A stretch of 64,000 bases of DNA, taken from positions 62,001 to 126,000 of the forward strand of contig NW_024882798.1 of assembly GCF_019059575.1 (NCBI RefSeq), in the 5' to 3' direction. This DNA is from Amphibalanus amphitrite. Lineage: Eukaryota > Arthropoda > Thecostraca > Balanomorpha > Balanidae. The position numbers and the translations under genes are program-made. Under the pieces are notes generated by a model. It saw only the letters and a list, made by a program, of their open reading frames with translations, did no database searches and was not told where the DNA came from. Positions 13,756-62,975 of this stretch are shown one piece after another; within the stretch, counting starts at the first letter, position 1, and each line of letters opens with the position of its first letter.

Positions 13756-13796
13756 CCGCCTGGACATGTCATCGCCACCACTTCAAAATGACGCAT

Positions 13797-29499: not shown

Positions 29500-32400
29500 A
29501 GTCAATTAGAGGCTCCACAGCATGATCGTCAGGATACGACATCCGTGCCAACATCGACAGCTGTCCCTGCTTCAATTGGTCCCAGTTTGAGCCCTGCCGT
29601 GAGTCCCCTACCCACAACCTCTGAAACTGATCCCTCTCTCCACCCACCCGTCACCGAGTACCGTCCCGTCGCCCACCCACCCGTCACTGACCCACCCGTC
29701 ACCGACCCACCCGGCCCCGAGCGTCCCGTCGCCGCCGACACGCTCAGCTCCGTCGAAAGGGAAACCGATCACGGCCGGCAGCGGGATGCGCGCGGCCGGC
29801 CGGTCACCGCGCGCCCCACCGGTGACAGGCCAGGTGGGCCGTCACCGACAGTTCCGATCGGTGACACCGGCGGTCAGCCAGTCAGGACGGATGGTGTCAT
29901 TGGTTCGAGCAGAGTAGGAAATGGAGCGGCCGACCGCGGAGGCGAGACCGGTGGCGGTTACGGTCCTAAATTAAACCCACTGTTGGAGGAACATGTAAGT
30001 GACAGAATGGGTAAACAAGGGAGTGAGATGGTCTTGAAACGGGAGCGTAACCCCGACGAAGGCGAAGAGGATAGTTCACAGAAGGACAAGGAAGAAATTC
30101 TATCGAATTCTGTTTTCTTAGATCGGGGTGCGATCAATTCGCTTCAAGACGCTACCAATGGAGCGGTACATGAGCAAATGGTTTTCGAATCTAACCCTCA
30201 GCACAACGTCCCAATTTTGATAAGTACGGAGCATAGCTTACTTGAAATCGATATTCCAGAAGCAGTCAATATAGCTGGTGTCCTACCTCAAATCGGAAAA
30301 GATCTTCGTCAAACGTTAATCCCAATCAGCGGAGGGTCACCTCGTCAGAAAACCGATACACTAGTCTCCGTTCGCCTCTCCAGCGACACGCGGCTAAGCA
30401 GCCACCATCTAACGTTCTCTTCTGTACTGAACGGCACCGAGGAATCTTCCAATCATCCCAAGCACGAGATGATTAGCGTGCGGAAACCTGCCGCTAACTC
30501 GATAAGTGGGCTACGAGCCGACACAGATATTACACGCCCAGTTACCGGCGCGGCGGCGGCCAGAACGGGGTCTCCGGCGGCCCCTGGCCCAGTTCACAGT
30601 TCTGCCGGCACGGTGGACGCCCATGTGCGCAGCCACGCTCCATGGGGCCGCGTGCGACTGCCGGCACACTCGATCGACCGCGAGGCCGCGAATGATGTCA
30701 GGCGCGGCTCATCTCTCACCAGCTCCGAGGCCGTGAGTGGTCCGCCGACCAGTGATGACGCTTCTCATGCCAGCGAAGAGCAGCCCTGTCTCACGGGCGG
30801 CCTGACCGACTCTGTGAACGACGTGCTCCCACCGGCTGGCCCCCCTCTCGAGCGTGTCGGAAGGCCGGTCCGCTCTCAGGGAGGCAGCGTCCAGAGTGGA
30901 GTCTCAGAGCAGCTGGGAAACACCGACTCCGCAAACCCAGTCTCAGACCAGATCGCGGATCGTATTCAGGCCGACAGGCTTAGGTCAGACACAGTGCCGG
31001 GCCACGCACAGCAAGGGTCGATTGATTTTGCCGAGCTGCCCAAGACAGAGGACACTGCAAACCAGACGCACAGCAAGGAGTCAACAGTTACGTTCCCAGA
31101 TGATCCACACACTGTAGGCGCCGCCAAGAGGGAAGTGTATTACCCGGTCGATACTCCCTTCACACCCGGAAGCCATGTTCCGAACAGCCCGACGAGCCGC
31201 AACCCCGACAGTCGTGAGAATGCAGCCGTCGCCGAGACCGCGGACCAGCTGCGTGAGGCCAGCACCGGGCGAATCCCCGGCCCAGCGCAGAGACGTCCAG
31301 CTGGGGCACAGACGCACCACGAGCTCGACGGTGTGCGGCCGCAAACGAACCTGCCAACCACAGTCGCCGCCACGACCACTGCCGCTGGTAGTTTTTTGGA
31401 GAAGGTGACCACAGTCGCCGATATTTCTTTAGACAAGATGACCGCAGCACGTGCGCTTGCTGGTCCAGCTGTCGCCGCGGCTGTTGATACGACTACCTTG
31501 TGTTCAAAAGCAGAGGCTACCGACGACTCTTTAGGTATTGTCACCGAAAACGAGACTGATGGCAATGCGTTATCCGATTACGTGGGGGAGATAACGAATC
31601 TAAATGTGTCTCACAGTCACGATGGTCCACACCATGATCTGAATATAACCGAATTGACAACAGGGGAAGATACTTCTCAAGTGAATGCGGCGACTCAAGC
31701 ACAAGAAAAGTGGCCCGAAGAGGAGCATGGTAAACTTGCCACTACATTAGCATGGTCTTGGGCTAACGAAACTAGCACAGAGCCTCAAGAAACTCCTCTG
31801 CCGTTGTCAGGCAAGGATTCATCCTCATTTATGACGACCACTACGCCCCTATCCCTGAAGCAGATTCTTTCGACAGATAAAACGTTAGAGACGATACAAT
31901 ATGATAAGGACGTAAAAACACCTAAGCCGACAACGCCTGCAAAATATCTCGATGAAGACCATAGATCTCATGTCACCGTCCCCGAAAGTGACGATTTTGT
32001 GGAAGCTTGGTCGCTCTCGGAGGAGCAGCTACATTCAAGAAACAACCGACCGTTATCAAATGACGACCACCCGTCCTCGGGAAACGACCGGCCGTCCCCG
32101 GGAGACGACCAGCCGTCCTCGGGAGACGACCAGCCGTCCTCGGGAGACGACCAGCCGTCCTTGGGGAGCAGCCAGCCGTCCTCGGGAGACGACCAGCCGT
32201 CCTCGGGGAGCAGCCAGCTGCCCTCACCAGACGGCCGCCCACCCTCGTTAGGAGGCCTGGAGGTGCACCCCGTGGACCGGTACCGGTACGGGCCTCCGCG
32301 AGTGGCCATCTCCTCCGAGCCGCTGCCGGACCGGTACGGCACCCCGCTGACGGTGCTGCGGTCCCGGGTACACGGCGAGCCCCGGCACCGGTACCGTCCA

Positions 32401-35400
32401 CCGGTACCGGACCGAGGCCACCGGCACAGGAGCCCTCCGAGGGGCGACTACCGCCACTATCACGTCAGCTCTCTGCACGGCAGCGCTCATCGCAGCCCTC
32501 ACACGAAACCTTACAGTAGTCCTCAGGCCAGCTATCACATTGGTTATCACACCAATTCTTATGCTGCTTTTCACACTAATCCTCAGGCTAATCCTCATGC
32601 CAGGCCCCAAGGTCCTCGCATCAGCACTTTCGTTCATTCTCACACTGGTTCCCACAGTGATAGCGTTTACCCACTGATCAGACCCATTCACAGGCCGGCA
32701 ATATCAAAGTTTCGCCCTCATGACGAGGAAATCCACGAGCTGGATAAAGAAGACCGACGAGAAGAGGGGTCTAGTGGCAAGGTGCTGCATCTGGTAACAC
32801 GGAGTACTCCGCAGCCGGACTCTGAAAGACCGTCAGTGGCTTCAGAAGCCACACAGACAGACAACGACCTGATAGAAGAGTCTTACAGCTCGTACGGCCA
32901 GGGACGGGAGTCTTCGAATTGGGCGAAGGAGCCTGATCAGGCTCCTTCGACGGTGCCGATAAACGTTTATGGACCAGGAAACCGACATACTTTGTTCTAC
33001 AGACCACCAGTTCATCTCCACGACGCACCTCTCAAAGTTAAGGACGATGCAGAGACCAAGTCAAAAGCACATCCGAACCTCTCACTCTATGGCGATTACA
33101 AGCCTGTATATGTGAATTTCAACCATTATCTCGTTTCACCGGGATATGGATCTTATCCGGCCAGCACGGAGCGTGGAAAAGAGCCACTAATTACGACTAA
33201 ACCTGAGTATGCTTCACGACTACCACACCTTTTCAAACAGGCGTCGATCGCGTCCAATAAAGGTGTGCTAAATAATATAGCACCGCCTCATTCATACTTG
33301 GCTACAGACGGTCAAGACGGTGCAGCTGGTTCTGTGCCAACGAATAGGCACGGCCCTCTCAGGATCAACAACGGCAAACCTGTAAGAATCACGCCTGTAA
33401 GGAACTACATTGCACCGCCCGTGACCAACCTTCAAAGAAGGTCACTGACTGGGGATGAAGCAGCCCAAGCCATTCACCAAAAGCATAAGAGATTTCCTCT
33501 CCCTGAGTCTAGCTCCGTGCTTCCCTTCTCCGCCGCCAGGCATCCTTCGACCACCTCACCGCCTCCCACAGAGCTCCTCACCTCTCCTGGCGCCAACCGG
33601 ACGGCCAGCAGCATCATGGAGTTGCTGCAGAGCTCCAACGCCTCCACCCTGATCCAGCTGCTGCGGCTGGCGGAGCTGGACACCCTGCTGGCTGACACAG
33701 GTAGGTGGCGACACGGCCACACGCTGATCATTTGCTTGGAGCGACTTTTGTCCCACCAATCGCATCACCAAATCCAGAGGCGTTCACTGAGTGACCGTTT
33801 AACTAATTTCACCCCTGACCGGTCGTGTCATTCTGGCGAGCCCGTCTCCAGTGACCTCCCGTATACTAACTGTCACCGCTGTGTTGACGGCCCGTCATGG
33901 CGTGTCGGTGGACGGGCGGTCACACATGGTGTCAGCCGGCCGACACGGCCGCGGTCACGGCCGCTGCGCCTGGAGTGTGGGGAGGCATCCGGGCTGTATA
34001 CTATATACGACAAACGGTGCGAATCGTGTGGGATATTGGGGTCAGGGGTTGGATTCCCATGCCGTGAAAAGGTGGCGATTATCGCGCGTCGAGTCACACA
34101 TCAGACGACTCGAGTCTGCGAGTATGGGAAACCATGCGATTCTCAATGAATGTATATTATTTTGGTTCGCAGCGAACATTAGTCGAGTCGGCAGGTGATG
34201 CCAAATTATCTGCAACTAGTTGAAACCAAATAACCTGAACTGGTGAGACGAACTGGTGCTCCTAACTTAGAGTAAATATTAAACGGTGTCTAAATAACTG
34301 CGCTTTCTAGGAAATTATTAGTCTGCAACAGATCCTGGCTAATATATGCTCACTATGTGACGTTCGCAGGGCCGTACACATTATTTGCTCCCACCAACGA
34401 GGCTGTGGATGAGCTGGTGAAGCGACTGGGAGGACCACGGCAGATGTTGGAGAAAATGGGCAAACCCAATCTTGTCAAGGTAACGTCTCGCATGACTTTG
34501 CTTCAGCTTAAATGTACATTATACCCGTACAAGTGCCAACTGGTTGGATATACTATGCGTACTCTGTATGCCCGCATATCTAACTTATTACTTTCTATTA
34601 TACACAATCCATAACTTTTCAATCGAATTCACCTTCATACCTATAATTTACGCGATGTGTGAACACCTGCACCTATTGCGGTACAGTGCAACTATCGGCT
34701 CTTGTTTTGTCCCTGTTATCCAATCAGCTGCTGCTGTACCACGTGATGCGTGGGTTCACCCTGGAGGAGGACCTCAGGGATGACGTGCTGGGTCGGACAC
34801 TGGCCGGCGGACGGCTGAGGATCAATCAGCACCGCGTGGCCAGCACCAGCACCAGCTCCAGCAGCGGCCGGCGGCGCCTCGTCACCACTGTGGACGGGGC
34901 GCGCCTGGTGTCCGGGCCGCGGCTGGCAGAGAACGGCGCCCTGTTCTCGGTGTCGGCCGTGCTGGCGCCGCCGCAGCCGGGCGTGCTGGCCGCGCTCAAC
35001 GCCGACCCGCTCGGCAGGTTCACCGTGCTGCTGCAGACGCTGCGACTGGCCGGACTGCACGACCAGCTCCAGCACGACGAAGGTACAGGTCCATGGCAGG
35101 AGCGGTCCCTTTAGAAAAGTTAGCTAATTTAAGCAATATAATTGAGCGCTATATCTATGTTACGGCACGGTCTAATATTTTAGGTTTGCTAGTTCCATGA
35201 TTTAAAATATTCTTAGAGCAATCATATTTTTTTATTTACCAATATAATATGTCTCACAGAATAACCCTCTCGCCCAATGTGCCCGGCAGCGGGCCCGGTG
35301 ACCCTGTTTGCCCCGACAAACGCCGCGTTCGCGACCGTCCCGGAGCGGCAGCTGCGGCGGCTGCTCGGCGACCGGCGGCGGCTGCGGCGCCTCCTGCTCG

Positions 35401-47039: not shown

Positions 47040-47660
47040 TCAAGGTTTATCGCTGTTCGAAGGTGGTTCACTGTCTGAATTTTGAGCTTTGGATTGTGTC
47101 CCTGAGCCCTCCGCGGGCGTCATCTCCACATCCGAACCGCCCTCTGCCGGTGCTGAGTCCGTTTTCGCGTCACCAGTCTGCTTCTGGTCCTTCTCTGCTG
47201 TTTCAGAGCACGGCTCCTTTTCCTTCTCTGCTGTTCCAGAGGACGGCTCCAGCTCCGTTTCCCTGTCCTTCTCCGACCCCCCGGCTGACTCAGTTTCCTT
47301 TTCCGATTCCTCCGTCGAGTCCTCTGCCTCGGGAGGCGGGATCGCCGGCGGCGGTTCCTCGCCCTTCTTCCTCAGGAACACGCGCTGCATGGACAGCTTC
47401 TTGTCGGAGAAGCACACCTTGGACCACGTCTTCTGACCGCCATCGTCGGTCGACTGGCCCAGGAAGAGCGCCGAGCCGATCTGGTCCTCGTAGTGTCCCA
47501 GGAAGTTGTACTTGCCGAGCTGCAGCACCGGCTTGTCGGTGTCGATGCCGACGAACTGGTAGGAGCAGCCCTTGGTGAGCAGCTCGTCGTCGACCAGGCC
47601 GTGCAGCTCCACCAGTACCACCATCTCCTCCTCCTCGTACTCTGAGTCACCGCTCTCCAT
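47040..47660 (-). CDS. GTF3C6: GTF3C6 homologue, small subunit of transcription factor TFIIIC
   Basis: A single-exon 206-residue protein. The start at 47660 (MESGDSEYEEEEMVVLVELHG) is preferred over an in-frame ATG at 47786, because the conserved family begins with an acidic run directly before VLVELxG. Residues about 13-100 form the conserved TFIIIC small-subunit (triple-barrel) domain, with VLVELHGLVDDELL, VGIDTDKPVLQLGKY, HYEDQIGSALFL and KKLSMQRVFL all aligning with my memory of human GTF3C6. The C-terminal half is a disordered Glu/Ser/Pro-rich tail. The protein is part of TFIIIC, which binds the B box of tRNA genes and recruits TFIIIB and RNA polymerase III in the nucleus. An intronless gene is slightly unusual, but the frame is intact. 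Confidence 0.88.
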   Translation of the reverse strand: MESGDSEYEEEEMVVLVELHGLVDDELLTKGCSYQFVGIDTDKPVLQLGKYNFLGHYEDQIGSALFLGQSTDDGGQKTWSKVCFSDKKLSMQRVFLRKKGEEPPPAIPPPEAEDSTEESEKETESAGGSEKDRETELEPSSGTAEKEKEPCSETAEKDQKQTGDAKTDSAPAEGGSDVEMTPAEGSGTQSKAQNSDSEPPSNSDKP

Positions 47661-49721
47661 GGTGGAGCAGCGCGGACGGGCGCCACGGGCCGCGTCACCG
47701 CCAGACGGCTCCCGGTCACACCGCAGGTTACCACACCTAGCGCAGACGCACTGAGCGGTGGGATTTGTTGTGAAGAGCAGACACAACAGGCTTTAGTACA
47801 GTGGACTTGGCCAGTACCCCATGTGTTCCACCCACCTCAGGGCTCAGATGGTGCTCCACAGCTGCCTCGAGCTTTCTCCAATCCTTTTATTGATGAGTAC
47901 TCTGGCTTGTGCTTCACCTTGCTAGATCTTGTAAATAGAACACAGTACAGATACTGCAATGCAAAACCAAGTTAGGTAAAGTCAGAAAAGAACAGCCAAA
48001 ATATCACATGAAGCAGCTGGCAGTCCCAGTAATGGGCGAAATGGGGGACAGAGGAATGGGGCAAAAACTCTGGAAAGGAGGCATGTCTGGTCAGGCACCT
48101 ATGACCTACAGGTGGCTACATCTTTAAAAAAATGCCAACTGCCAAGGGAAAAAGGAAAAGGGTCATCACCCATCCCATGTGATAAGTGTGAAGGTGTGAT
48201 AAGTGTGATAAGATGTGATAAGTGGCATGGCAGCCGCATAGGCCCCTGCAGCTACCACCACCAGTCGGTAGGATGCTACGTGAGGCAACAAGGGAAAAAG
48301 GAAAAGGCCAACAGCCTTAGAGGCAAAAACATATATACATACTACCTCATCCGGCTAAAGGTCTTGCAGATTTAAGGTGTAAGTAGATGTTTGTTGAAAT
48401 AACATCCAAACTGCATGCTAACACTGGTTTATTGTTATGTCTGCATTCTCCAAATACAATGCTTTCAACATTTTTTTAAAAAATAAATTAAAGCCTACAT
48501 TTCACTAAGAACGCAAGCGCAGAGCACACAAAAATGTTTCATGCCACTTACCACATTGCATAGCCACTTACAATTTTTTTTTTTAAATTGAAATCTTGAA
48601 AACCATTCGCCAGGACGCTAAAGCGAGCACACATACAAGCAAAAAAGTGTTCAATAGCTGCAGGTTATAAAAAGTACCTGCTCGACGAACAGAAAGACGA
48701 AGATTTTCGCCAATTCTCTAGCTGGCTTTTGCCAGAAACGCCTTCAACATATATTTTCGAGCACAAATCTTACACCAGAAATGTCTCAAATGCGCAGTTT
48801 GCACTACAGTTGCCATATTTGAAGAAAGTAGCTCAAAAATCAAAACAAATAAAACAAATAATACGGTTAGATCCGGAGGATTCTGAGGTTGTCGGTCGCT
48901 TGCTGTAAATTTTTGCGCATTTTAGTTTCAGGTTTTCAAATTTATTAGACATTTCGATCGTATAGGCATAACAGCATGGCGGATAACATCACAACCTGTG
49001 CAAGGGCTTGACGAGGAAACAAGGCCCTATATAGAACGAGGAAAAGAATACCGAAAGCAGGTCAAGGTGGGTTGATTCCCATTTTTTTTTTTCAAGAGGA
49101 TGCTGTTTTTCGTGAATAGCTTAGCAACTTCCTGTTAATTTAAATCTCTCCAATCACCATGAATTTTTGCTGGCATATTGGGTTATTACCTAGTGCTTAA
49201 GCACTGATGGATTCAGACTTGCGTTTGGGGGGAGGGGGCAACTCATGCACAAGGGTACCTGTCCTAGGGTACCCTAAATCCTGTTTTCTCATTAGATTTA
49301 GGCCATTCATTTTTCATCACAGCCCTGACATGATGAATATTTTTTAACTATAAAGTAAAATATAGAAATGGTAGCCCACACGACCCATGCCTTCAGGTCG
49401 AGGTGGGAGGACTCTGACGGCACTGCAGGCAGAGAGAGAGAGAGCGAGCGAGAGCGAGAGCGAGCAAGGCGGGAGCGAGAGCGAGAGCGAGCAAGGCGGG
49501 AGAGAGAGGGAGAGAGAATATATATAGGCCCTGGTGTGAATAGCTTTGATGTATGAACATTTGAATGTCCCCATTTACAGTGGACCTCACACTAATTTAC
49601 ACCATCATACCTCCTGACTGGCCTGCCATGAGCCATCACTAACTGTCAGGCGCCGTCTGCCCGCAGCCTCCGGAGCCACGCCTATGTGAAACCACACTCA
49701 CAGTGAGCAGCGGCCGCAGCC
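47661..49721. other. Intergenic DNA between GTF3C6 and the zinc-finger locus
   Basis: 47661-47790 is GC-rich and probably carries the GTF3C6 promoter. The remainder is AT-rich without a supported gene. 49262-49350 is the second copy of the short dispersed repeat found at 16301-16392. Confidence 0.5.
49432..49521. repeat. GA/GAGC microsatellite
   Basis: GAGAGA runs are interspersed with GAGCGAGC and two copies of AAGGCGGGAG. The charged open frame over it is an artefact. Confidence 0.9.
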
Positions 49722-52700
49722 ATGGAGTCGCTGCGCGCCTCGTCCTCGAGCTACTTCCCGGAGGTGGACGACGAGCTGGGCCGCGACGCGGGCTCACCGT
49801 ACGCCGGCCAGCAGGCGCTGCAGGCGGCGTCCTACTCGGACCAGGAGGCCCTGCCGCCGTCCTCCGTGGCCACGCTCAGCCCGGGCCCGCAGGAGACCTA
49901 CCTGCGGGCCGGACACTACACGGTGGTGGCGGCGCGGCCCGGCGAGCTGGTACACCAGGTAGGTACCGCAGCGGGCCGCGGTCGGCGGCGCGGCCGGGCA
50001 CGTGGGGAGCGAGGACTGCCGCACTCTGGGGACGGACTGTGGGGAGAAGTTTGTAAGAGGGGCGGGAGATCCGCTACTGACCCTCCGCTCCATTATTGAC
50101 CCGTTTCCCCCTTTATTGTCTTAGTCTCTCCCCTTGTTGGCCTGTTCGTCATTATTGACCCACTCCTATTAGTCATTCAGTCGCTCCCTTTATTCATTGA
50201 CCGGCTCCTCTGTCATAGACTGGTTTTACTCCTTTATTGCCCCACTCCACCGGTAGGGGCCAGCTCGCCTCCATTATTGACCTTTTGTTATTGACCCATT
50301 CCTGCTCGATTGGCCCACCCCAGCCATTGACACACCACTCGGTCTGCCCGTTTCTGACCTGTCTGCCTCCGCCGCCAGGACGGCGACAAGGAGGGCGAGG
50401 CGGCGTTCTGCGTGCAGGCGGTCGGCGCCTTCTCTGAGGCCGGCGCCGAGCTGGACAAGTCGGTGTCCCACGAGCTGCAGTTTATCGGCGCCGGCACGGA
50501 GCTGGCCGGCGGCGCGTACCAGCTCAGCGCCGCCGGCGACGTCTACAAGCTGGTGGTGCGCGAGTCGAAGCCGGGCGACGTGTCGGCGGAGCAGCTGGCC
50601 GTCCACTACGGGCACCCGCTGCTGGCCGAGCCGCTGCTCCCGGTGGCGGCGGCCGTCACCGACCACCACGTGCCGCCGCCGCAGCCCGACCAGGTGGACA
50701 AGAAGGTGGCGCTGTCCGTGCCGGAGGCACAGCCGTCCCAGCAGCTGGCGCCGCCGCCGCCGCCGCCCCACTGCCTCATCTGCGACATGCGTCTGGCCAA
50801 CCACCCGGTGCTGGACATTTTCAGCAACACCACCCACCAGACGAGCACCACGTACGCCATCAAGCTGCGCCAGGTGACGGGCCACCGGGCCAACTTCGCC
50901 TACCACTCGGACGTGCTCTGCGAGTCGTGCGCCTCGCTGCTCAACGTGGTCGACTCGTTCGAGGCCCGTCTGCGAGAGATCAAAACCCGGCTGGACGACA
51001 CGCGCGCAGAGGTGCAGAATAAGTTCATCCGCACGTGCGCACGATATGACGAGGCTCAGCTGACGGGACCTACTGAGCCAGAGGGGGAGAGTGATAAGGT
51101 GCAGGGGAGAAAGAGAAAAGCAGAGGAGACGGCACCGCAGCCCAAGAAGAGAAAGTCGCGTATCAAGACGGTCGCTGTTTTAAAAGACACATCGTACAGG
51201 GCGAAGACTGCTGCTGCCTCTTCTTCCGCGGAGGACGTCGGTAAGGAGCGACAGAACGGATTAATTCACACATGGACATGCATCAAGCTATATATGTTTT
51301 GTATACATTTTAAGTGTAAATGTATCGTTAAAGCTGGCAATGTCTTGGACTGGCACGACATTAACTAGTTTCTTGTTGGCCTTTGTAAGAGCCATTACAG
51401 CAGCTGAATGTAAGCTCCACTCACCGGCCGGTTGTGCCCCTTTGTTTCAGGGTCGGCGGCGGTTCGGCAGCGTCGGCCGGCCCGGCGCGCCGCCGAGCGA
51501 GTCAGGACGCTGGCCGAGGACGCCGACAACCCGGAGGGCGTCGACGACCCGGAGCCGGAGCCGGAGCAGGCCGCCGACCCCTCGTACGGCGAGGTGAGCG
51601 ACGGAGGGTGACCACTGGCGAGTGAGGTTGGGTTCACGATATATCAATATTAGATTAAACAGTGACAGGGTACGGTACGTCATGGATGAAGTTTAGAAGA
51701 TACCTACCAAGGATTGGGGTTACTTGTTATGTCATCTGCTTTGTTTGTAATCGTGAAGGTGTTTGAGCGTGTTCTGCGTGTCCGTCATTTGGTGGACGTG
51801 AAGGTATGACTTATGACAAACTAAAATATTCGTTCAATAACAAAAACAACGTTGAAAAAACATTGCACAAAACATCACGTGCACCGGCAATGCCAGTATT
51901 CTGTTCCGCCACCTACCAGTCATCTATGTAAGCCAAAGTGCAGATAGGGCGGCTGCTCACGCTGGCTGGAGACTCGGAGGTACTCGCGTGGGCCGGCCGG
52001 CCGGCTGGACGAGTGAGGCGGCTGGGCGGGCCGCCGGCCGCCGGCCGCCGCGCCGCCGTGTGTGTCCGGCCGTCCGCTGACGCCGCCTCCCCTGTCCGTC
52101 CAGCTGGCCAGCTCGCTGAAACTGGAGACCGCCGCCGCAGAGGAGGACGACGCCGCCGAGGATGAGGACGATGACGAGGACGAGGACACCACCAACCTCT
52201 CGGACGGCCGGCCACTGCGCGTGGCCAACATGTGCGACCGCTGCGGCCGGCTCTTCATCAACCCGATGGTGCTGAAGGTGCACCAGCTGACGCACGAGCG
52301 GGAGCAGCAGCGCTCGCCGTCGCCGGCGCCGGAGGCCCCCTCGGACGGGCTCATCATCCCGGCGCTGGAGATGGAGTACCCGGGCGGACCGGACGACGTG
52401 CTGGCGCAGGCCGTGCAGCAGATGCAGGGGGCCGACAGCCCGGCGGCGGCCGTCACCCAGGAGCGGCCGCCGGACGGGCCCGAGACGGTGCCGCCGCCGG
52501 CCGAGACGGACACTGTGCCCGGGGCGTCCGGAGGGGCCGGTCAGTCGGCGGCGGGCGTGCAGGAGGTGTTCAAGTGTGACTCGTGTCCGAGCATATTCCG
52601 GTCGCTGCAGAGCCTGCAGCGTCACCACCGCAAGGCGCACACGCAGGCCGTGTGGCGGTGCTTCGTCTGCTGGCAGGCCGTGGACAGTCTGCGCCGGATG

Positions 52701-53621
52701 CGCCGGCACGTGGCCGCGCACGGCGAGCAGAACAGCTGCGCCGTCTGCCTGCTGCCGTTCGAGACCAAGGCGCAGCTCAAACTGCACGTGACGCGGAAAC
52801 ACCCCGAGACGCAGACCAAAAACAACTACTGCGAGCTCTGCAACAAACACTTCGACAACCAGGGCTTCATCGAGCACGCGCGTGGCGTACACGGCGTGGG
52901 CGCCGACTCGTCGCGCCGGATCAAGTGCGACCAGTGTGACAAGGTGCTCTCTAACAACGTCAGCTACGCGAGACACATGAAGGTGCACAAAAGGGACTTC
53001 AACTGCCAGTACTGCGGCAAGTCCTTCAACAGCCGCACCAACCTGGACAACCACGAGCGCACCCACACCGGCGAGAAGCCCTACATCTGCCCCGACTGCG
53101 AGCGCTCCTTCATCTCCAAACAGGTGCGCGATATCCACATCCGCACCTTCCACCGCCAGAACCCGTACGCCTGCAAACGCTGCAAGCGGCGCTGCGAGTC
53201 CAAGGCCGCCTTCATCCGGCACATGCGCTCGCACGCCGGCGTGACGCCGTTCGAGTGTCCCGTCTGCGGCAAAAAGATGACCACCGAGTATTCGCTGAAG
53301 ATGCACATCCGCGCCGTCCACGACCGCAAGCTGCCGTTCCAGTGCCACGTGTGCCAGAAGGCGTTTCCGTACAAGTCTTCGCTGACTCTGCACATGAACA
53401 CACACTCTGGCGACAAGTCGCACATCTGCGACATTTGCGGAAAGTGTTTCGCGTCTCGCGGTTCACTGCGCACGCACATGCACACGCACAGTACGGAAAA
53501 GCCGTACAAGTGTGAGTGGTGCGACCGCAGCTTTTCGCGGAAGGACCTGCTGGCCGGACACAAGCTGCAGATTCATGGCATTCAGCCGGTGACCAACTAC
53601 TCGCGGCTCACCCGACACTGA
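49722..53621 (+). CDS. ZAD-like C2H2 zinc-finger transcription factor, 13 fingers (isoform A)
   Basis: Exons: 49722-49958, 50379-51240, 51451-51593 and 52104-53621, all GT-AG with matching phases; 919 residues. The ATG at 49722 follows a GC-rich leader and opens MESLRASSSSYFPEVDDELG. A ZAD-like zinc module lies at about 211-285 (CxxC at 211/214 and 260/263). Basic nuclear-localisation clusters lie near 323-340 (RKRKAEE, PKKRKSR). An acidic stretch (EEDDAAEDEDDDEDED) starts exon 4. Thirteen C2H2 fingers run from about 458 to 904, with a TGEKPY linker after finger 7. ZAD zinc-finger proteins are arthropod DNA-binding regulators in which the ZAD mediates dimerisation. The target is unknown. Exon 3 ends in phase 0 and could splice instead to the second finger module at 55032. 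Confidence 0.85.
50086..50335. repeat. Degenerate intronic tandem repeat in the zinc-finger gene
   Basis: About ten loose copies of a unit like CTCCTTTATTGACCCACTC fill most of intron 1. Spacing is irregular. Confidence 0.5.
51594..52103. other. Intron 3 of the zinc-finger gene
   Basis: The intron runs from GTGAGC to TGTCCGTCCAG. The part near 51990-52060 is a GGCCGGCC-rich stretch. Nothing else is recognised. Confidence 0.6.
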
Positions 53622-53624
53622 GCG

Positions 53625-53766
53625 GCCGGGGAAGGGTCGGTACGGACTCCAACTCTGTGCCCGGGGAAGGGTCGGTACGGACTCCAACTCTGTGCCCGGG
53701 GAAGGGTCGGTACCGACTCCAACTCTGTGCCTGGGGAAGGGTCGGTACGGACTCCAGCTCTGTGCC
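53625..53766 (+). repeat. 35 bp minisatellite in the 3' UTR of isoform A
   Basis: Four copies with a period of exactly 35 bp (GAAGGGTCGG at 53631, 53666, 53701 and 53736). The first three are nearly identical. They begin within a few bases of the stop codon, so they are transcribed. Confidence 0.9.
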
Positions 53767-54017
53767 TCTGAATGGGTGTGTTAGAAGAGGGGCGGTAACT
53801 GTACAGAGGCGGTGTGTGTGTGTGGCGTTGGAGAGTGACGCGATGGGTCCGTGTGGGGAGCTGTGAGGGGCGCTGCGCCCTGCACTCGGGCTGTTGATGT
53901 GGGCAGGGTTGGTGGCCTGATGTTTGCGTTGGCATTATCCGTCCGTGCCTGGTCCGTGTTGGTTGACACCGCCCGCTGCCGGTCGGGCCGGTGGTACGGC
54001 TGAACCCGCCGGCCGAC

Positions 54018-54023
54018 ATTAAA
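54018..54023 (+). terminator. Candidate poly(A) signal of zinc-finger isoform A
   Basis: ATTAAA lies about 400 bases after the stop codon at 53621. Cleavage here would leave out the second finger module downstream. Confidence 0.35.
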
Positions 54024-54623
54024 CCCTGCACCCGGAGCGCACATCTCGTGAGGTCCCCCACAGATGGGGTGATACAGGCGTCCCGGAGCCGCGGGGAGCT
54101 GCGCCATCACCTCCCTGAAGCCCGGCGTGACACCAAGCGTGTCTTAGGATGACGAATTTCGATACTGCACCTTTGATAACAGTCGAAAATAGTTGTATGG
54201 TCAAGATGGTCTCCGTGCCTGCAGTGCACGTGCGAATGCCGGTGTTTGGTATATACTTTTATGGTGAACGTTTATGCAGCGTTTTATGATGATTTTTGCT
54301 ATCTTTTTCCTGTTGTCTTGTGCGTGATAGGTCAGTTTCTTTTTGTACTTTGTATCTGTGACGTGGGAGCTACATCTTTGTAACCTGTTTCAAGGTCCCT
54401 TTCAGGGCGACTAGATGTCTCAATCTTGTGCAGGTTAGCCTTCATTCGAATGTTATCTCTGATGTCCGCAATATCCAGGTTGTAGGACTGCTGCGTGGTG
54501 TAAGGAGTTATCATGACTCTTTTCAATAGGTGTTGTACGAGTTGTGAAATACACAAAGATTATCTATAATATTTGTGTCATGTTACGGGTTGTGATCTGT
54601 TTGGGATGCTCAACTCATATGAA

Positions 54624-54675
54624 GGGAACCATAAAAAACGAGTTTGGATCATCCAAACTAGTTTTTATGGTTCCC
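54624..54675. repeat. 52 bp hairpin between the two zinc-finger modules
   Basis: GGGAACCATAAAAA...GTTTGGA is followed after two to three bases by its reverse complement TCCAAAC...TTTTTATGGTTCCC, with two small differences in about 24 bp. It is a near-perfect fold-back. Confidence 0.8.
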
Positions 54676-55031
54676 TGGATGTATGACATGCAGTTGCTTA
54701 CATACGAAGAAAGTTAATCCTGACCAATCGGCGAAAAGCTGGTCCGAAGGTGGGCTGGAAGGTGCAAGGTGCACTGTGGATGACTGAGGAATCTCTCAGC
54801 GTCTTAAACCCAGTTGTGCATTCAGCAACATTCGCACAGGTGTTAGAGGCATATGGACCACCTCTATCTCAAGTATTATTGCGTTCTGCGCCGTGAATCT
54901 GATTGAGATGGAGCGGGGCAGATCCCCTAAAACGTTGAATTTGCACCATATCTATGATGACCGCCTCCAACACGAATGAGCCTCTGAACTGTTGAGTTCT
55001 CACTATAGTGACCACCGCTCGCCGCCCACAG

Positions 55032-56800
55032 CCGAGCGGCGAGGCCGACGGCAGCGGCCGGTCCTCCGACGACGCAGAGACGGACGCCGACGACGACGAG
55101 GACGACGAGCCCTCGGAGCGGCGCGTCCGGGTGGTGAACCGGTGTCCGCACTGCCACGCCGTGCGGGACAACATGCACGCGTTCCGCGCCCACCTGGCCT
55201 CGCACGCCGAGCTGACGGCCGACGCCGTGGCCGAGCACCTCACTCAGAAGGCCAACGAGAGGCTCGCCTACGCGTGCAGCAGGTAAGGACCGAGAGGGGA
55301 CGGCCGGACCCAACTGGTCAACGCTGGTCGCTGCAGCCTGGCTTAAGCTTGGGTTTATCGCTCATATCCAGTGTCATTGTTCAAGGTGCTCGTGGCCCAA
55401 TTCACAATGACTGGAGTTCGTTACAGCGGGCAAATCGCGTCTGAGTGAATGATCACTTACTTGGTTATGCTTTCAGCTCGTTGGCGTTTTTTCCAGACTT
55501 TGTTAGCACTGAGCAGTCCTGTTAAATTATTCGGAGCACGTGTAGTGTAGGTTCCGTACCGTAAGATCGATGAATTAGGCGGTATGCACATCTCATCTGC
55601 CGCCGATTACCGTTCGCTGACGCCGCCCCCGGTCCGGCCGGCAGGTGCTCGACCACGTTCTCGGCGTACCGGGAGCAGCAGCGGCACGTGCGCTGCCGAC
55701 ACCCGCGGCTGGGCCGCTGTCCGGTCTGTCTGACAGAGGTGGAGGAGACGGGCGGCCTGATGCAGCGCCACCTGGCCTCGCACGCGGCGCCGGCGCGCTG
55801 CTCCTTCTGCTCGGAGCAGACCGACTCGGTGACGGCGCTGTGCCGACACACGGAGCAGCAGCACCCGCTGGCGCTGCACAGCCTCTACTGCGAGCTCTGC
55901 CGGGCGTTCGTGGACGAGGCCGCGATGGCCGCGCACCTGCGCACCGACCACAGCTCCGTGCCCGAGCTGAGCGTCCAGTGCCGCCGCTGCGGCGAGGTGG
56001 TGCGCCGCAGCGCGCTGGTCGGCCATATGAAGGTGCACGAGCAGAGCCACCGGTGCGGCTACTGCGGCCGGGCCTTCCCCAGCGCCGCCGCGCTGGTCAT
56101 CCACGAGAGGACGCACACGGGCGAGCGGCCCTATCGGTGCCAGGAGTGCCGCAAGTCGTACATCTCCAAGGCCACCCTGGAGGCGCACGTGAGCGCGTTC
56201 CACCGCTCCAACCAGTACGAGTGTGACCAGTGCTCGCGGAGTTACACGAGCGCCGCCCGGCTGAGGCGACACCAACTAATGCACAGCGACACCAAACCGT
56301 TCATCTGCCAGGTGTGCAAGAAGGGCTTCAACCTGGAGAACCACCTCAACATGCACGTGCGCGCCATCCACCTGGGCGAGACACCGTACGAGTGCCACGT
56401 GTGCCACAAGCGCTTCCCGTACAAATCATCACTCAAGAATCACGTGCACGTGCATACGGGCGACAAGTCGCACTGCTGTCCCACGTGCGGCAAGCGCTTC
56501 AGCACGGCCAAGATCCTGCGCTCGCACTCGTTCACCCACCGCGCCGAGAAACCGTACAAGTGTGACTACCGGCCCTGCGACGCCAGTTTCTCCCGAAAGG
56601 ACCTGCTGGCGCGACACCGGCTCTCGAGCCACGGCATCGCGCCCGAGGTGCGCTACAGCCGACTGCAGGGCCGGCCGGCCGCCCGGCAGCCGGCGCCGGC
56701 CCCTCCCGCACCGCCCCCGCCGCCGCCGCCCCCGCTACAGCCGTCTGTACACTACGTGCTGACCTACCAAGCGCCCCCGCGGCCCGCACATCCGTCCTAA
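55032..56800 (+). CDS. Second 13-finger C2H2 module, probable alternative 3' end (isoform B)
   Basis: Exons 55032-55282 and 55645-56800 (stop TAA). The first begins after CCGCCCACAG in phase 0 and has no start codon: the frame is closed by a TGA at 54993 with no ATG between. It must therefore be spliced to an upstream exon, and exon 3 of the preceding gene (end 51593, phase 0) fits. The joined isoform would have 882 residues. The content parallels the first module: acidic run, RVRVVNRCPHC (compare RPLRVANMCDRC), 13 C2H2 fingers, a final FSRKDLL finger and a YSRL tail. It then adds a Pro-rich C-terminus. The last finger has CxxxxC spacing. AATAAA at 57767 could end it. A separate gene with an unseen first exon is the alternative. 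Confidence 0.75.
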
Positions 56801-57331
56801 TGTCCGAGAGCAGTGATACGGCTGTGTACCTGTGAGCTGTGGGCTCGAACCTGGCCGGGGCTCGAGTCTCGACATGGGCGGAAATTTCTATACCTACTTG
56901 AGCCATCTGTGCTGGCATGTGATTGCTGTTTTCGTCGTCAGCGGCTTGTGCGTATCGTACAAGCTTACTGTTATTGTACGTGAAGGTCGAGTGAGAACCC
57001 CAGAGGTGTTGGCGCCTATGGGGTGAGTATACGGGGTCAAACATTCCAGGCAGCATACAATGGGCTGGGCATATTGCCGATCTCGAGCGGGGACTGAAAC
57101 GGTTGTTTTTTCCTCGCCCGCCATGTTACATTACCTATATGCTGACAGACATTAGACAATAAGTGTCTATCGATGAAAATCGTGCTTCACTGGACACGAC
57201 GTACCACGTGATATTTTTGGGTCTGCACAGTGCACCGGTAGTGTTTTTCGTTGTAGCATCCACATTCCACACCAGCTCCACTTCGCCAGTCGTATATTTG
57301 AAAATCCCCAACCCCGTAACAACCACATTCA
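56801..57331. other. Convergent 3' flank between the zinc-finger locus and NOC2L
   Basis: No gene is seen. The + strand zinc-finger 3' UTR and the - strand NOC2L 3' UTR should meet or overlap here. Confidence 0.5.
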
Positions 57332-59641
57332 TCAGCGAACCTTTGCCTTCTTCGCTCCGGCCTTGGTCTGCTGCGGCCGTTTCCGTTTCTTGTTTTTCTG
57401 CTGCTTCTTCTGTTTGTTTTTGGAGGGTTTCAGAGGTTCGAGCTTGTCGCCCTCGTCTTCTACCTCGTCGCTCTCGCTCTCTAACCTGTGAACCGAATGG
57501 CGCGTCAGCAACTCGGGCTCCAGGAGCTCTGTCTCGCCTAGCACTGTACCTTATCCGTCATCTCACTGACAACCTCGACAGTCAGAATTCAGAATGAGTT
57601 TCTGAAACAGGCATTGTAATTGTATGTTATTTTACTATGTTTTTCATCATTACATTGCGTGTTATGTATTGGTTTTTGTACGTCTGCCAAGCAACGTTGC
57701 AAACATGATTCATTGATGTAAAATGTTGTATGTAGTCCGTCTGCTGACTGTTTTGCACGAAAATCAAATAAAAGCACTTAACAACATTCACAATGCACTT
57801 TTGAGACATGATTACGCAAATGATAAAATTTCCTATTATAGCCGCATCTGAAGAGCTTAGAAAGTGGTGGGCGGTTTTGCACTTAACAAAAGGCGTTCGT
57901 ATACGGTGGTGGGACAGATCTTTTTTTAAGCGCATGATGCCAAAATGTACTTAAATATATGGGGACAGATTTACTCAAACATTTTTACTGTACTTGTAGT
58001 GTCATTGTATCAGCGTGGTATAAAGTATTCGTATTTCGGTAAGATCGTAAATATTTCAGGCTTATTTATCACTTGCTCGGAAGCTATGTCCCACAGCAGT
58101 GCGGAGACGATACTCATTTAGCCCCTATCCGCCGCCCAGCGCCGGATGCGTTCCTTTTGTTAGGTCGCGTCGAAGCGCGTTATTGGGCAAGAGACCAGAA
58201 TCGAGGGCAACAACCGGTCCTGCTTAGAACGTATTTGCCAGCCGGCTGACGATTTAACACGTCCTCCGGGCCGGATTTGAACCAGCGACCTATGGATGCC
58301 TGTGAGAGCCGCTACAGTCCACCGCTCTACCAACTGAGCTACCAGAGGATATCAAACCAGTGGAACAATGCCAAATGCGCTAAGCTTGACGTCGCTGTTC
58401 TGGCCTGCGACAGAGTGAAAGTGAACACCCAAATTCAGAGATTGCAACACACCTGCTCTGCAGCCGCAGCTCGACATAAACACAATCCGCCAGGCCTCTG
58501 GTAGCTCAGTTGGTAGAGCGGTGGACTGTAGCGGGACACTCAGGCATCCATAGGTCGCTGGTTCAAATCCGGCCCGGAGGACGTTTTGAACCGATATTTT
58601 TTAGAACTGGGTCGGTTGTGACTTGTGGTTGGTTGAGAATTGAATGTCACTGCGGTTTCGTCAGGGACCTACAACAATTATAAACTTTGCCTAGCCCCGA
58701 GAGCAAGACAATGAGACGGCTACGCGCGCTAAACAGTTGGTCCGCGAAACCTTCACTCGAGTGTTCACTTTCAGCCACCACGCAAAGAATGATCACTGAA
58801 AGGTACCCAACATGTTTCACCACAGCGGACTTCTCAAGCTATCCTACGGTGCGAAGAACTTCGTTCAGTCATTCACTCACTAAATGAAATCGGTGCCCGG
58901 ACAGTATCTTCCAAGGCTCAAGCTATAAGGACGAGAGAGATGCGCAGTACGACCGGATGGCAAGAAGGGCCAAACACTCACCGTAACACCATCTCCCCGT
59001 CCTCCTGCTCGCCCTCGGAGTCGTCCTCTGCGTCCTCGTCGAACGGGCGCACCTCGTCCTCCGAGTTCTCCTCGTCCTCGTCCACACTGTCCACGGCGTC
59101 CGGGCCGGCCCGCACGCTGATCTTGGAGTCCTGCGACACCGCGGACGGGGTTAGAGGGGAGTGTGGGAACACAGCGGCGCGCTCTGCGGCTGGACAGGCG
59201 CGTCTGGATGTTTTCCATAACAAATTTCCAAAAGCCACAAGTGAGGTTGCCGACGCATAAGAATCACTCGTAAACACCAATTGCTCCTTATAAATACCAT
59301 CATTGCTTCACCATTTACCATCCTCACGCACTAATCTCATCCCCACACCCACAACACACTCGTTCAGCCCCTCACGCCGCTGCATCACCAACCTTGCCGG
59401 GCTTGGCGCTGCTCTTCTTCTCCTGCCGTGCGCGCCAGAGCTCGTAGAAGGCGGTGAAGGGCGTGCCCTCTGTGCGTCGCTCCTGTTCCCAGCGGCGCAC
59501 CGCCTCCAGGTCGGACAGCTCGAACGGCAGCGTCTGGCGCCGGGCGTCCAGGTGCTCAGCGTTCGCCTTGATTTTGTCCAGCACCTCCTTCATCTGCTGG
59601 TTGTAGGTGCGCACCTTGCACTTGGAGAGGAACTCCTTCAG
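57332..59641 (-). CDS. NOC2L: NOC2L homologue, last three exons (5' part outside the window)
   Basis: - strand exons: 59641-59393, 59130-58982 and 57485-57332 (stop). Acceptors are CAG in each case; the middle donor is GTGAGT, while the first donor is a weaker GTTGGT. Phases match (0, then 2). The first exon reads LKEFLSKCKVRTYNQQ...LDKIKANAEHLDARRQTLPF...EGTPFTAFYELWRAR, which lines up with the C-terminal end of the Noc2 domain of human NOC2L as I remember it. The second exon is very acidic and the last ends in a basic Lys/Arg tail. Noc2 pairs with Noc1 or Noc3 to carry pre-60S ribosome particles from nucleolus to nucleoplasm. No upstream exons are seen to 64000, so the rest lies beyond, and the tRNA cluster sits in its introns. 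A truncated copy is the alternative. Confidence 0.75.
57767..57772 (+). terminator. Candidate poly(A) signal for zinc-finger isoform B
   Basis: AATAAA on the + strand, 967 bases after the stop at 56800. If used, the 3' UTR would run antisense across the last NOC2L exon. Confidence 0.35.
58262..58348 (-). tRNA. tRNA-Tyr (GTA), 14 nt intron
   Basis: The acceptor stem CCTCTGG pairs with CCGGAGG; the discriminator is A. The A box (TAGCTCAGTTGG) and B box (GGTTCAAATCC) are intact. The anticodon GTA sits in GGACTGTAG, followed by a 14-base intron (CGGCTCTCACAGGC) at the usual position after base 37. It is paired head-to-head with 58495-58581. Confidence 0.95.
58495..58581 (+). tRNA. tRNA-Tyr (GTA), 14 nt intron
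   Basis: The mature sequence is the same as the neighbour on the other strand; the intron is CGGGACACTCAGGC. All stems pair. It diverges from 58262-58348 across a 146 bp spacer. Confidence 0.95.
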
Positions 59642-60506
59642 CTGAGTCCCCGGACGGTGAGGGGGAGGTCAGACTGGTGTGACGGTAGCGAGCTCAGAGT
59701 GGGTGACGGAGGCACGATACACACGGATATCCACCGCTCAAAGAGAAGATGGATAGATTCGAGGCAGAATCAAAACAAAAGTTTGATGTGTAGACAAGTT
59801 GGGATTTTTATTGGACGCAAATTGAAAAGAATCTTAAACGAGTTTGGAGCGAAACGCAAACAAGCCAAGAAGACGTCGACTGCCAATGACCTAGCATGCG
59901 TTCCATGTCAAAACGTCCTCCGGGCCGGATTTGAACCAGGGACCCGCAGATGTCTTTGCCCGTATGTTCACCTCCGGCCCGGGGGCACCGGAGTCACTGG
60001 AAAATTGACCAGCCAGAGAGGGACTCGCGGCAATTACAAATCCTTCGTGAAATAGGCATCAGGTCAAATAACAGACAAAAGCCGAAGGTCAAATTTTCTA
60101 ACTGAAGGTCAAACTATGATTCAACCGACGCGTCTCGACGAGAGAAATACGATGCTCGTAGAATCGGTGTCGCACAAGGAGTGTATTGAACGTTATTGCA
60201 GAACAAGCCTAAAAAATGTCCATTTTCACATTATTTGTCCAATGAGAACGAACCGTCGCCCTGAAGTAAATTCTGAGCATATACATCACAAGAGGTTGCA
60301 AAGAATTATCGTTTGCACTTTACTGCGAAGCCGTAGCTCATCATTTCACGGGTTATACGTCGATTTGTCGAATCATATTTTTCTTCAATGACCTCAAGTG
60401 ACATTGGTATTGACCTGAGACCTGAGTAGAAAATGACAACATTTTCCAACTAAGATACTCGTTTAGGTATATATTGATCACCTTTACTGTTTTTATCCTT
60501 TTTTAG
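59642..60506. other. Intronic DNA of NOC2L with a core-bearing fragment
   Basis: Besides the tRNA-derived piece at 59916, the stretch 60085-60200 carries the shared transposon core (CCGACGCGTCTCGACGAGAG...ACGATGCT) without recognisable ends. A 250-residue open frame over 59303-60055 crosses the NOC2L exon antisense and is not a gene. Confidence 0.5.
59916..59965 (-). pseudogene. Truncated tRNA-Tyr-derived sequence
   Basis: The 3' half (GGTCCCTGGTTCAAATCC GGCCCGGAGGA, read on the - strand) matches tRNA-Tyr with small changes. Beyond it the sequence does not form the anticodon arm or 5' half. It retains a B box but no A box. Confidence 0.7.
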
Positions 60507-61703
60507 CCCGCGCCCTGATGGGGTCTGCCGAGCAACGCGGTCTGATGGGGGGGGGGCATTTTGCCCCCCCCCCCCTAGATCTCGAGAACCACGCAACATA
60601 GCGACAACGGCAAACGGCGTTGGATAGCCCCAACGGGGAACTACCTTGTGACCCAATTTCATTGACCTCGGTCCAACCGATGACGTCACAGGTCAGGTCA
60701 AATGTCGAATTTTCACCGTTTACAGGCATTTCAAGAAATGCGTTGTAAAATCGAGTAAAATGCATTTCATTGAAAATCATCGATGGGGAAACGTTCGTCA
60801 AGCACATATTTTGTTATCTGAGGTCACTGATACCAGGTCAGGTCACAGAGGTCAGGTAACTGAGGGTCACAATACGAAAATATCATGTGATGCATGTTTT
60901 ATGGTCCAGTTTATATGCCAAATGCGATTATGTGGGGCAGGCAGCCCTTGGGGTCAGTTGATATTATGTTTTGGTGAAGGTCAGGTCAAGGTCAGGTCAA
61001 GGTCGGGTCAAATTAGGTCAAATTTCAAAGTTGATATTTTTGCATAAAATGGGATCGATTCGATGCAGTTCGTCACGGGGAGTTCAATGATGGCCTTTGT
61101 TTTGCGCTGAGTGGTCTAGAAATGCTAAAATTGAGGTAAAAAAATTTGACGTCATCAATTTTGATTTTTTTTTTTGCTATAACTTATCGATCATTAAAAC
61201 TTATCGATCAAAAAGAGGTATCGATCTTAAATTTGATATGCATATCAAAGAACGCAGGGAGTATCACATTTATTCCGTTTTTTTATCGAAATTCGATTTT
61301 TTTTTAGATTTTTTAAAAAGTTTTTTTTTTCTCTAAAAAAATCATTTTTTTTGTTTTTGGGGGTAAAAATCCAAAAATTTTGAAAACCCGAGATAGCAGT
61401 TTCGTAGCGCCGTCTTTCCTCTACACGACCACATAAAGAACTTTAAAATTGCTTGTTAACTGTAGATTTGGTGAGCGTTTCAAGATGTCATGTTTTTTGC
61501 TAATTTTTACTCGAACATGACCTCAGTTTGACCTCAATAACTCCTGACCCAAGGTGACCTGTGACTTGAAATTTTGTGTGAATATGTCAAATTGATGCCC
61601 AGAAAGGTACTGAAAATTTGGCGGCGCTGCGCGCCGCCGTTTTCTTACTATTTAAGAAAAACCACAGGGGGGGGGGCCAAAATGCCCCCCATCAGGGCGC
61701 GGG
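60507..61703. mobile_element. Family D short transposon, copy 3 (reverse orientation)
   Basis: It begins CCCGCGCCCTGATGGGG and ends CATCAGGGCGCGGG, with TTAG on both sides (60503-60506 and 61704-61707), a 4 bp duplication differing by one base from the usual TTAA. The interior is the reverse complement of the 18950-21349 elements (for example the TTGACGTCATCAATTTTGA region and the CAAAGTTGATATTTTTGCAT region). A GGCGGCGCTGCGCGCCGCC stem-loop lies at 61621-61639. No coding capacity. Confidence 0.7.
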
Positions 61704-61831
61704 TTAGTGTACGCGATAATCAGGTGTGCGATAAGAAGGCCCTCACTGGCCATCGGTCACCACCATGGATACATCGACTGAGAATCCCACCACAAATTAA
61801 AAGATTTTGACCCGTCACCGAGGTCAAAACG

Positions 61832-61918
61832 TCCTCCGGGCCGGATTTGAACCAGCGACCTATGGATGTCTGAACGTTCCGCTACAGTCCACCGCTCTAC
61901 CAACTGAGCTACCAGAGG
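61832..61918 (-). tRNA. tRNA-Tyr (GTA), 14 nt intron
   Basis: An intact cloverleaf identical in its mature part to the other copies; the intron is CGGAACGTTCAGAC. It is head-to-head with 62062-62147 across 143 bp. Confidence 0.95.
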
Positions 61919-62061
61919 AAGCTGAATACTAGTGTCGCCGCGCTGACCTGCTCGTCGTCCCGCCCCCGCTCAGGGCGTGGTCCCTTTCACTACACAGTTC
62001 CACCCGCACTTCACGGCCCGCCGTCGCCGGCGCGCGATACCGCGTCAGAGCGGCCTCATAT

Positions 62062-62147
62062 CCTCTGGTAGCTCAGTTGGTAGAGCGGTGGACTGTAGAG
62101 CACTCACAGGCATCCATAGGTCGCTGGTTCAAATCCGGCCCGGAGGA
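62062..62147 (+). tRNA. tRNA-Tyr (GTA), 13 nt intron
   Basis: Intact; the intron is AGCACTCACAGGC, one base shorter than in most other copies. The 140 bp upstream is nearly the same as upstream of 62890-62975, showing that both belong to one duplicated unit. Confidence 0.95.
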
Positions 62148-62261
62148 CGTTTTGGCCCAGTCGCTGGTCTATTTTATTCTTATACACGATACTGGACTGG
62201 AATGGACTTTAAATTGCACCCAACCACTGAACACCTAGCAGACACTAACAAAACATCACAC

Positions 62262-62475
62262 TAGTGTGCAATTGGACACCGTGCCGGCGTAAGCCAAGCC
62301 ACCGAACTGGTGTGAAACAAGACACCGGAATGACATGAAATAAGAGACCGGACTGACATGAAACAAGAGACAGGACTGACATGAAACAATACACCGGGCC
62401 GGCGAGAAACAAACATCGGACTGGTGGGTAACCAATAACTAGACACCTGACTGGTATGAAACAACTTAACATCGA
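62262..62475. repeat. Degenerate tandem repeat of about 23 bp between tRNA units
   Basis: About eight units like ACACCGGACTGACATGAAACAA. In units reading ACACC GGACT GGTGT the first 15 bases can fold back on themselves. Confidence 0.75.
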
Positions 62476-62652
62476 AATGTACCGTGGAGTACCGTGCCGG
62501 GCACAGCTTCACTGAAAAAAAAAATGGATGAAGCCTGAGCCATTGCCGGTTTATTTGGATTTTCGAGCGTTCCGAATGCGAATGTCATTTGCACTCATAC
62601 AATCTAAGCGACAGCAATTTCAGGATCTGACCAGCAGTTGCTCCCCAAAACG

Positions 62653-62739
62653 TCCTCCGGGCCGGATTTGAACCAGCGACCTATGGATGCCTGCGAGTTC
62701 ATCTACAGTCCACCGCTCTACCAACTGAGCTACCAGAGG
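62653..62739 (-). tRNA. tRNA-Tyr (GTA), 14 nt intron
   Basis: Intact; the intron is ATGAACTCGCAGGC. It is head-to-head with 62890-62975 across 150 bp. Confidence 0.95.
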
Positions 62740-62889
62740 ATGTTGAACATTTTGCCGCCGTGCTGGCCTGTCTGTGGCCCCGCCCCCACTCAGGGCGTGG
62801 TCCCTTTCACTACACCGTTCCACTCTGTAACCGGCACTTCACGGCCCGCCGTCGCCGGCGCGCGATACCGCGTCAGAACGGCCTCATAT

Positions 62890-62975
62890 CCTCTGGTAGC
62901 TCAGTTGGTAGAGCGGTGGACTGTAGAGCACTCACAGGCATCCATAGGTCGCTGGTTCAAATCCGGCCAGGAGGA
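62890..62975 (+). tRNA. tRNA-Tyr (GTA), 13 nt intron, one acceptor-stem mismatch
   Basis: The intron AGCACTCACAGGC is identical to that of 62062-62147. In the 3' acceptor strand CCGGAGG is changed to CAGGAGG, giving a G-A mismatch at pair 6-67. Promoter boxes are intact; the gene may still work or may be at the start of decay. Confidence 0.85.

Follow-up and report, generated by a model that had tools for sequence, protein, structure and literature searches.

The Drosophila gene lola encodes a common N-terminal interaction domain that is joined to variable C-terminal zinc-finger ends, with at least 20 isoforms described (PMC4528330), and mod(mdg4) similarly combines a common 5' part with a variable 3' part that binds zinc (PMC4667647, PMC4528330). 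All mod(mdg4) mRNAs of Drosophila are reported to be trans-spliced (PMC12692577), although trans-splicing is not general to genes of this type, because cis-spliced homologues have been described (PMC4667647). The isoforms of fruitless, of the BTB-zinc finger family (PMC7027472), differ in their C-terminal zinc fingers and have distinct regulatory roles in Drosophila (PMC3852243). A comparable arrangement lies in the genome of the barnacle Amphibalanus amphitrite, within 64,000 nucleotides of contig NW_024882798.1 (NCBI RefSeq assembly GCF_019059575.1, positions 62,001 to 126,000, forward strand), here called the window. On balance, it is best explained as one C2H2 zinc-finger gene in which the donor of the third exon is spliced either to a module A or past A to a module B, to give two products of 13 fingers each.

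The barnacle locus resembles lola in its common head and variable zinc-finger ends, but lola has a BTB head and many ends, one of them with evidence of trans-splicing, whereas the barnacle head has no BTB match and the ends are two, each of 13 fingers. The likeness to mod(mdg4) is in the common 5' part with variable zinc-binding 3' ends, and the differences are the BTB head of mod(mdg4), the FLYWCH domain in most of its variable ends, its more than 30 isoforms and its trans-splicing. The fruitless gene is alike in having isoforms with different C-terminal fingers and unlike in belonging to the BTB family and in its male-specific isoforms; its variable ends are much smaller than the 13-finger ends of the barnacle locus.

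The head itself calls for comparison with the ZAD-C2H2 proteins, a family typical of arthropods in which two cysteine pairs, separated by about 50 aa, lie close to the N-terminus, with a long helix behind them and C2H2 fingers arrayed at the C-terminus (PMC5509000). Pita, ZIPIC, Zw5 and Grauzone share the cysteine pairs, the long helix and the C-terminal array with the barnacle protein. Unlike them, the barnacle head falls below the Pfam threshold, its ZAD-like region lies 210 aa from the N-terminus, and two alternative arrays may follow it. In the titles and abstract openings of the literature found, no ZAD gene with alternative finger arrays is described, nor is the barnacle gene itself, and the main text of PMC7655104, on ZAD-ZNF genes, has 0 instances of the word "isoform".

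Overall, the locus can be regarded as a variant of the lola/mod(mdg4) design. Its 5' exons end in one phase that fits two zinc-finger 3' ends; as for products in which the head is joined to A or to B, head+B is annotated, and a fused head+A+B appears in two gene models, P0001 and P0003. A preliminary description of this DNA, which had proposed the lola/mod(mdg4) logic with a ZAD in place of the BTB domain, is thus supported in part.

Gene structure and the head+B product

The stretch 47500-58500 was read, its frames were listed and its exons were spliced by script, and the splice model was built before the protein search. Splice-site matrices of textbook frequencies underlie all of the donor and acceptor scores. 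The features are as follows.

49722..49958, + strand: exon 1 of the common head; 79 aa from the starting ATG, ending in phase 0 at CAG/GTAGGT
50379..51240, + strand: exon 2 of the common head, which holds the ZAD-like region; Pfam match at 50772-50984; C-x2-C ... C-x2-C, then a long predicted helix
51451..51593, + strand: exon 3 of the common head and branch point between the modules; donor GAG/GTGAGC, phase 0, score 9.89
52104..53621, + strand: module A, encoded by one exon; it has an acidic run and 13 C2H2 fingers and ends with YSRLTRH before the stop
53588..53589, + strand: weak internal donor CCG/GTGACC in A (score 4.96), which would make the A-to-B joint of P0001
54018..54023, + strand: ATTAAA, which may serve module A transcripts as poly(A) signal, by sequence match only
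55032..55282, + strand: exon 1 of module B; acidic run, finger 1 and the start of finger 2; phase 0 acceptor
55645..56800, + strand: exon 2 of module B; remainder of finger 2 to finger 13, YSRL, a proline-rich tail and stop

When spliced, exons 1-3 encode a head of 414 residues that is free of stops and ends in phase 0. Modules A and B each begin in phase 0 after CAG, and the spliced frames agree with those read in the preliminary description. Both splice products are open, with 919 aa for head+A, which ends at a TGA stop at 53619-53621, and 882 aa for head+B. Phase 0 at both acceptors is weak evidence by itself, as it is expected 1 time in 3 by chance. The features that were first noticed in both modules are all present: each has an acidic run, an RVxN.C..C motif of the RVAN.C..C or RVVN.C..C type and a C-terminal array of 13 C2H2 fingers, with FSRKDLL in finger 13. 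Module A is intronless, and in B a phase 2 intron (55283-55644) interrupts finger 2.

Among the matches of B in a protein search is P0002, an A. amphitrite protein of 882 aa annotated as "zinc finger and BTB domain-containing protein 17-like isoform X2". Its residues 1-414 are 100% identical to the spliced head (414/414) and its residues 415-882 are 100% identical to spliced B (468/468). The 51593-55032 junction, one of the two that the preliminary description had asked for, is already in public annotation as P0002, that is, in an annotated isoform and not in reads. The label "isoform X2" implies that the gene has at least one further isoform.

As had been claimed, module B has no start codon of its own: its frame is closed upstream by a TGA at 54993, and the first ATG, at 55173, is inside finger 1. 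In addition, a first exon between 53621 and 55032 had been proposed as the observation that would speak against a shared head, and no coding one was found, a non-coding exon being outside the reach of the scan; 0 ATG frames in 53622-55031 end at a phase-0 donor that scores at least 6, as compared to a mean of 1.9 frames in the same scan of 300 mononucleotide shuffles of the gap. A reading in which B forms an independent gene, driven by its own promoter and provided with a first exon, and was attached to exons 1-3 through an error of prediction, is quite improbable. Tandem homologous zinc-finger arrays are the usual result of gene duplication, the B acceptor is of middling strength, and a non-coding first exon followed by the ATG at 55173 is possible, although the protein would then lose the acidic run and some of finger 1. 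However, isoform X2 joins B exactly to exon 3, B is in one protein with the head in all three of the full-length models seen (P0001, P0002 and P0003), and a tblastn search of the window (E up to 0.01) listed the known exons alone, with no second copy of the head and no third module.

Transcription of B from its own promoter, with the transcript then joined to the head by trans-splicing as in Drosophila mod(mdg4), would follow the same logic of a constant head and a variable end, and it would suit a module that opens with an acceptor and lacks a start codon. This is very improbable, given that ordinary cis-splicing suffices when the head, A and B are on one strand within about 7 kb, and that the mod(mdg4) homologues of Daphnia, Tribolium and Apis are described as cis-spliced (PMC4667647).

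Age and divergence of the two modules

Modules A and B are 42% identical over 351 aa (E 9e-90) and their C-terminal ends share FSRKDLL and YSRL, which are outside the finger consensus; together, the identity and the common motifs indicate that the two are paralogues. In the gene model P0003, from Pollicipes pollicipes, both modules are present, with 74% identity to A for the Pollicipes A module and 71% identity to B, over 403 aa, for the Pollicipes B module. Because identity within each module type across species far exceeds the 42% between A and B, the duplication is older than the separation of Amphibalanus and Pollicipes. A published estimate for four barnacles, among them Amphibalanus amphitrite and Pollicipes, places their divergence at about 247 million years (PMC11331182). 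The tandem duplication proposed at first is thereby upheld, and it appears to be old; what was taken to be a duplicated terminal exon is better described as a pair of paralogous modules, of which B has two exons and A has one.

A search with residues 1-560 of head+A gave three proteins among the matches listed, all of them from barnacles (7987 candidates scored). Beyond P0001-P0003 and a further protein, P0039, identity was at most 40% in the search with B (best 120 of 786 matches, with at most 7985 candidates scored) and at most 41% in the search with A (best 120 of 5058 matches), such that no orthologue stands out. P0039 is 85% identical to A and, from this similarity, is taken to be a barnacle protein.

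To compare the fingers one by one, the residues at positions -1, 2, 3 and 6 of each helix were taken as contact positions, for 52 residues in 13 fingers. A and B agree at 16/52 of these residues and in 0/13 whole quadruplets, and the A and B modules of Pollicipes agree at 13/52 residues and in 0/13 quadruplets. Between the species, A and Pollicipes A share 44/52 residues and 9/13 quadruplets, and B and Pollicipes B share 36/52 residues and 3/13 quadruplets, while A and P0039 share 45/52 residues and 8/13 quadruplets. For fingers 7-13, which form an evenly linked array, the counts are 12/28 for A and B, 27/28 for A and Pollicipes A, 22/28 for B and Pollicipes B, and 27/28 for A and P0039. The comparison that had been called for thus finds contact quadruplets that differ in 13/13 fingers, and, judging from these residues, A and B should read different DNA.

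Could B instead be a decaying duplicate that was pulled in by gene predictors? Fingers of B such as 1 and 3-6 stray by eye from the usual hydrophobic pattern, and B evolves somewhat faster than A, as the contacts kept with Pollicipes suggest (36/52 against 44/52). Yet the C2H2 residues are kept in all 13 B fingers in both A. amphitrite and Pollicipes, and the 71% identity has been retained over some 247 million years. Furthermore, B differs from P0001 by 6 substitutions and 2 missing residues in 466 aligned, which is similar to the head (4 substitutions in 414, with 3 extra residues) and to A (5 in 495). Decay of B is therefore hardly credible.

Fused gene models and the end of module A

Several observations weigh against a simple choice between two ends. 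The first is the existence of 26-finger fusions: P0001 (A. amphitrite, from another annotation, 1378 aa) consists of the head, A up to GIQP, and B, and P0003 (1350 aa) consists of the head, A through YSRLSKH, and B, such that each species has a different A-to-B joint. For Pollicipes, the annotation comes from the NCBI pipeline, with RNA-Seq among its inputs (PMC8917513), and because of that input its fusion model cannot be dismissed. No protein equal to head+A was among the matches listed (7987 candidates scored), although one may hide in the 4-member cluster of P0001. The B acceptors are weaker than that of A; among all AGs in the window, the A acceptor is in the top 1.4%, that of B in the top 5.2% and that of the second B exon in the top 6.3%, so that the description of both module acceptors as good suits A and is less apt for B. 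Identity between A and B is 0.31 at the contact residues and 0.32 at neighbouring residues, and because the contacts have diverged no further than the residues around them, the pattern is one of constrained divergence and not evidence of positive selection. Finally, the fingers of A and B are clearly collinear in most cases but not in all: 6/13 A fingers are most similar to the B finger of the same number, and 10/13 B fingers to the A finger of the same number.

The fusions would be accounted for if A were a cassette, such that transcripts either include A and run into B, for 26 fingers, or skip A, for the 13 fingers of B only. The stop of A would be avoided by splicing just upstream of it, and A from 52104 to 53588 is a whole number of codons. 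We consider a cassette somewhat unlikely, even with both P0001 and P0003 fusing A to B and with RNA-Seq behind the Pollicipes annotation. The donor that it needs, CCG/GTGACC at 53588, is the sole phase-0 GT in 53500-53640, and it scores 4.96 as compared to 7.69-11.59 for the four donors of our splice model. Its use would also discard the A tail with YSRL. That motif is kept in 3/3 A modules seen past the GIQP joint, namely those of the window, of P0003 and of P0039 (P0001 leaves A ahead of it), and it is found as well in B of the window and of Pollicipes, suggesting that the A tail is translated and constrained. The joints of the two fusions differ, whereas A ends in a stop in the window and P0039 ends at the same place, after YSRLNRT. 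The weak donor, the loss of YSRL on fusion, and the shared end of A and P0039 favour A as a terminal end. Of the preliminary view that a transcript carries either A or B, the annotated head+B product supports one part, but P0001 and P0003, which fuse A to B, leave the mutual exclusion of the modules in doubt.

For one gene with two ends, the reading that we prefer, the shared head at the N-terminus, including its divergent ZAD-like region, would come from exons 1-3. The donor at 51593 would join the terminal exon A (52104-53621), which has a separate stop and probably also a separate poly(A) site, or else skip A and join B (55032-56800), in what may be a regulated choice. Each product, of which head+A is the predicted one, would place the same, presumably self-associating head on a different 13-finger array. 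The two arrays would go back to an old duplication, in tandem, of the 3' part of the gene that codes for the fingers, after which the contact residues diverged.

The gap of 1410 bases between the A stop and B has 52% G+C, as compared to 65-80% in the exons. The ATTAAA at 54018 is 397 nt past the A stop, and the first AATAAA found after B is at 57767 on the + strand; both are sequence matches without a control for chance. Directly past the A stop codon, about four copies of a 35-nt unit occupy 53617-53791. A near-perfect hairpin with arms of about 25 bp lies at 54623-54676, between the possible poly(A) signal of A and the B acceptor; the stretch 54600-54710 folds with a z-score of -5.85, and 0/200 shuffles are as stable. 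No further copy of the hairpin beyond 13-bp matches is in the window, and a repeat search listed no inverted pair there. It may represent what is left of a small mobile element, or else a structure that influences whether A or B is chosen. The 3' end of the intron before A (52070-52103) resembles the 3' end of the B intron (55610-55644; 29 bp, 86%, E 0.004), a likeness that does not extend to the acceptor at 55032 and may be due to chance in GC-rich sequence.

The ZAD-like head and the setting of the locus

The head region is probably a divergent ZAD-like domain. Head residues 211-281 match Pfam zf-AD (PF07776) with 15.1 bits (E 0.028), which does not reach the cut-off of 28, and a Pfam scan of P0003 up to E 1 does not list zf-AD. 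The head has two C-x2-C pairs, at cysteines 211/214 and 260/263, that are 45 residues apart, placed as in ZADs and kept in Pollicipes, and the stretch of 112 residues around them is 76% identical in Pollicipes, as compared to about 51% over the whole head. An AlphaFold model from 3 sequences has a mean pLDDT of 60.9, with a confident long C-terminal helix and values below 50 for the presumed globule, residues 1-49 of the modelled piece. Six insect ZAD proteins were scanned and five were used in hhalign, with P0098 left out due to its partial match; the score of 10.5 is no better than those of 60 column shuffles (mean 11.2, maximum 18.8). A PDB sequence search for a ZAD gave 8 sequences up to E 10, none of them named ZAD, and a ZAD search of the barnacle's own genome gave 0 matches, in a search that detected 0/14 controls. 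The cysteine pairs agree with the earlier assignment of a ZAD to this head, and the Pfam match behind it is below threshold.

A BTB/POZ domain was not found in the head; the Pfam scan up to E 1 lists zf-AD and Glypican (E 0.16) alone, and an NCBIfam scan gave no usable match. The database name "ZBTB17-like" therefore looks misleading.

The neighbours of the locus are a gene for TFIIIC subunit 6 (TFIIIC_sub6) and a Noc2 gene, both on the opposite strand. An open frame at 57332-57550 on the - strand faces B and is possibly the end of the Noc2 gene, and the 3' ends of the B gene and Noc2 may overlap, as the AATAAA at 57767 lies beyond this frame. Farther along, Rfam matches tRNAs at six places in 58262-62975, which form three opposed pairs; five of the six matches score 59.5-59.6 bits, and ARAGORN in bacterial mode lists four tRNAs with differing isotypes in the same stretch, which is either a cluster of intron-bearing tRNAs or a tRNA-derived repeat. 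Elsewhere in the window, a long open frame at 11949-13838 on the - strand has two CUB matches and a trypsin domain, and an open frame of 1561 codons at 29464-34149 on the + strand has no Pfam match up to E 0.01.

A broader claim joins two parts: that a ZAD-type head arrived at the lola design independently in the barnacle lineage, before Amphibalanus and Pollicipes split, and that head+A, head+B and the 26-finger head+A+B are all made, by a stop-or-splice choice at the end of A. Taken as a whole, this claim is unlikely, but if it were true, one head could be brought to A sites or to B sites, or could span both as part of a single polypeptide. If the two-ended gene is confirmed, then the pairing of a constant head with a swappable DNA-reading end would not be tied to BTB and could arise on other association heads. 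The locus, with no more than two ends, both of them kept for some 247 million years by the published estimate, would then offer a model of much lower complexity than lola or mod(mdg4), and such a model could address how an end is chosen and what each end binds.

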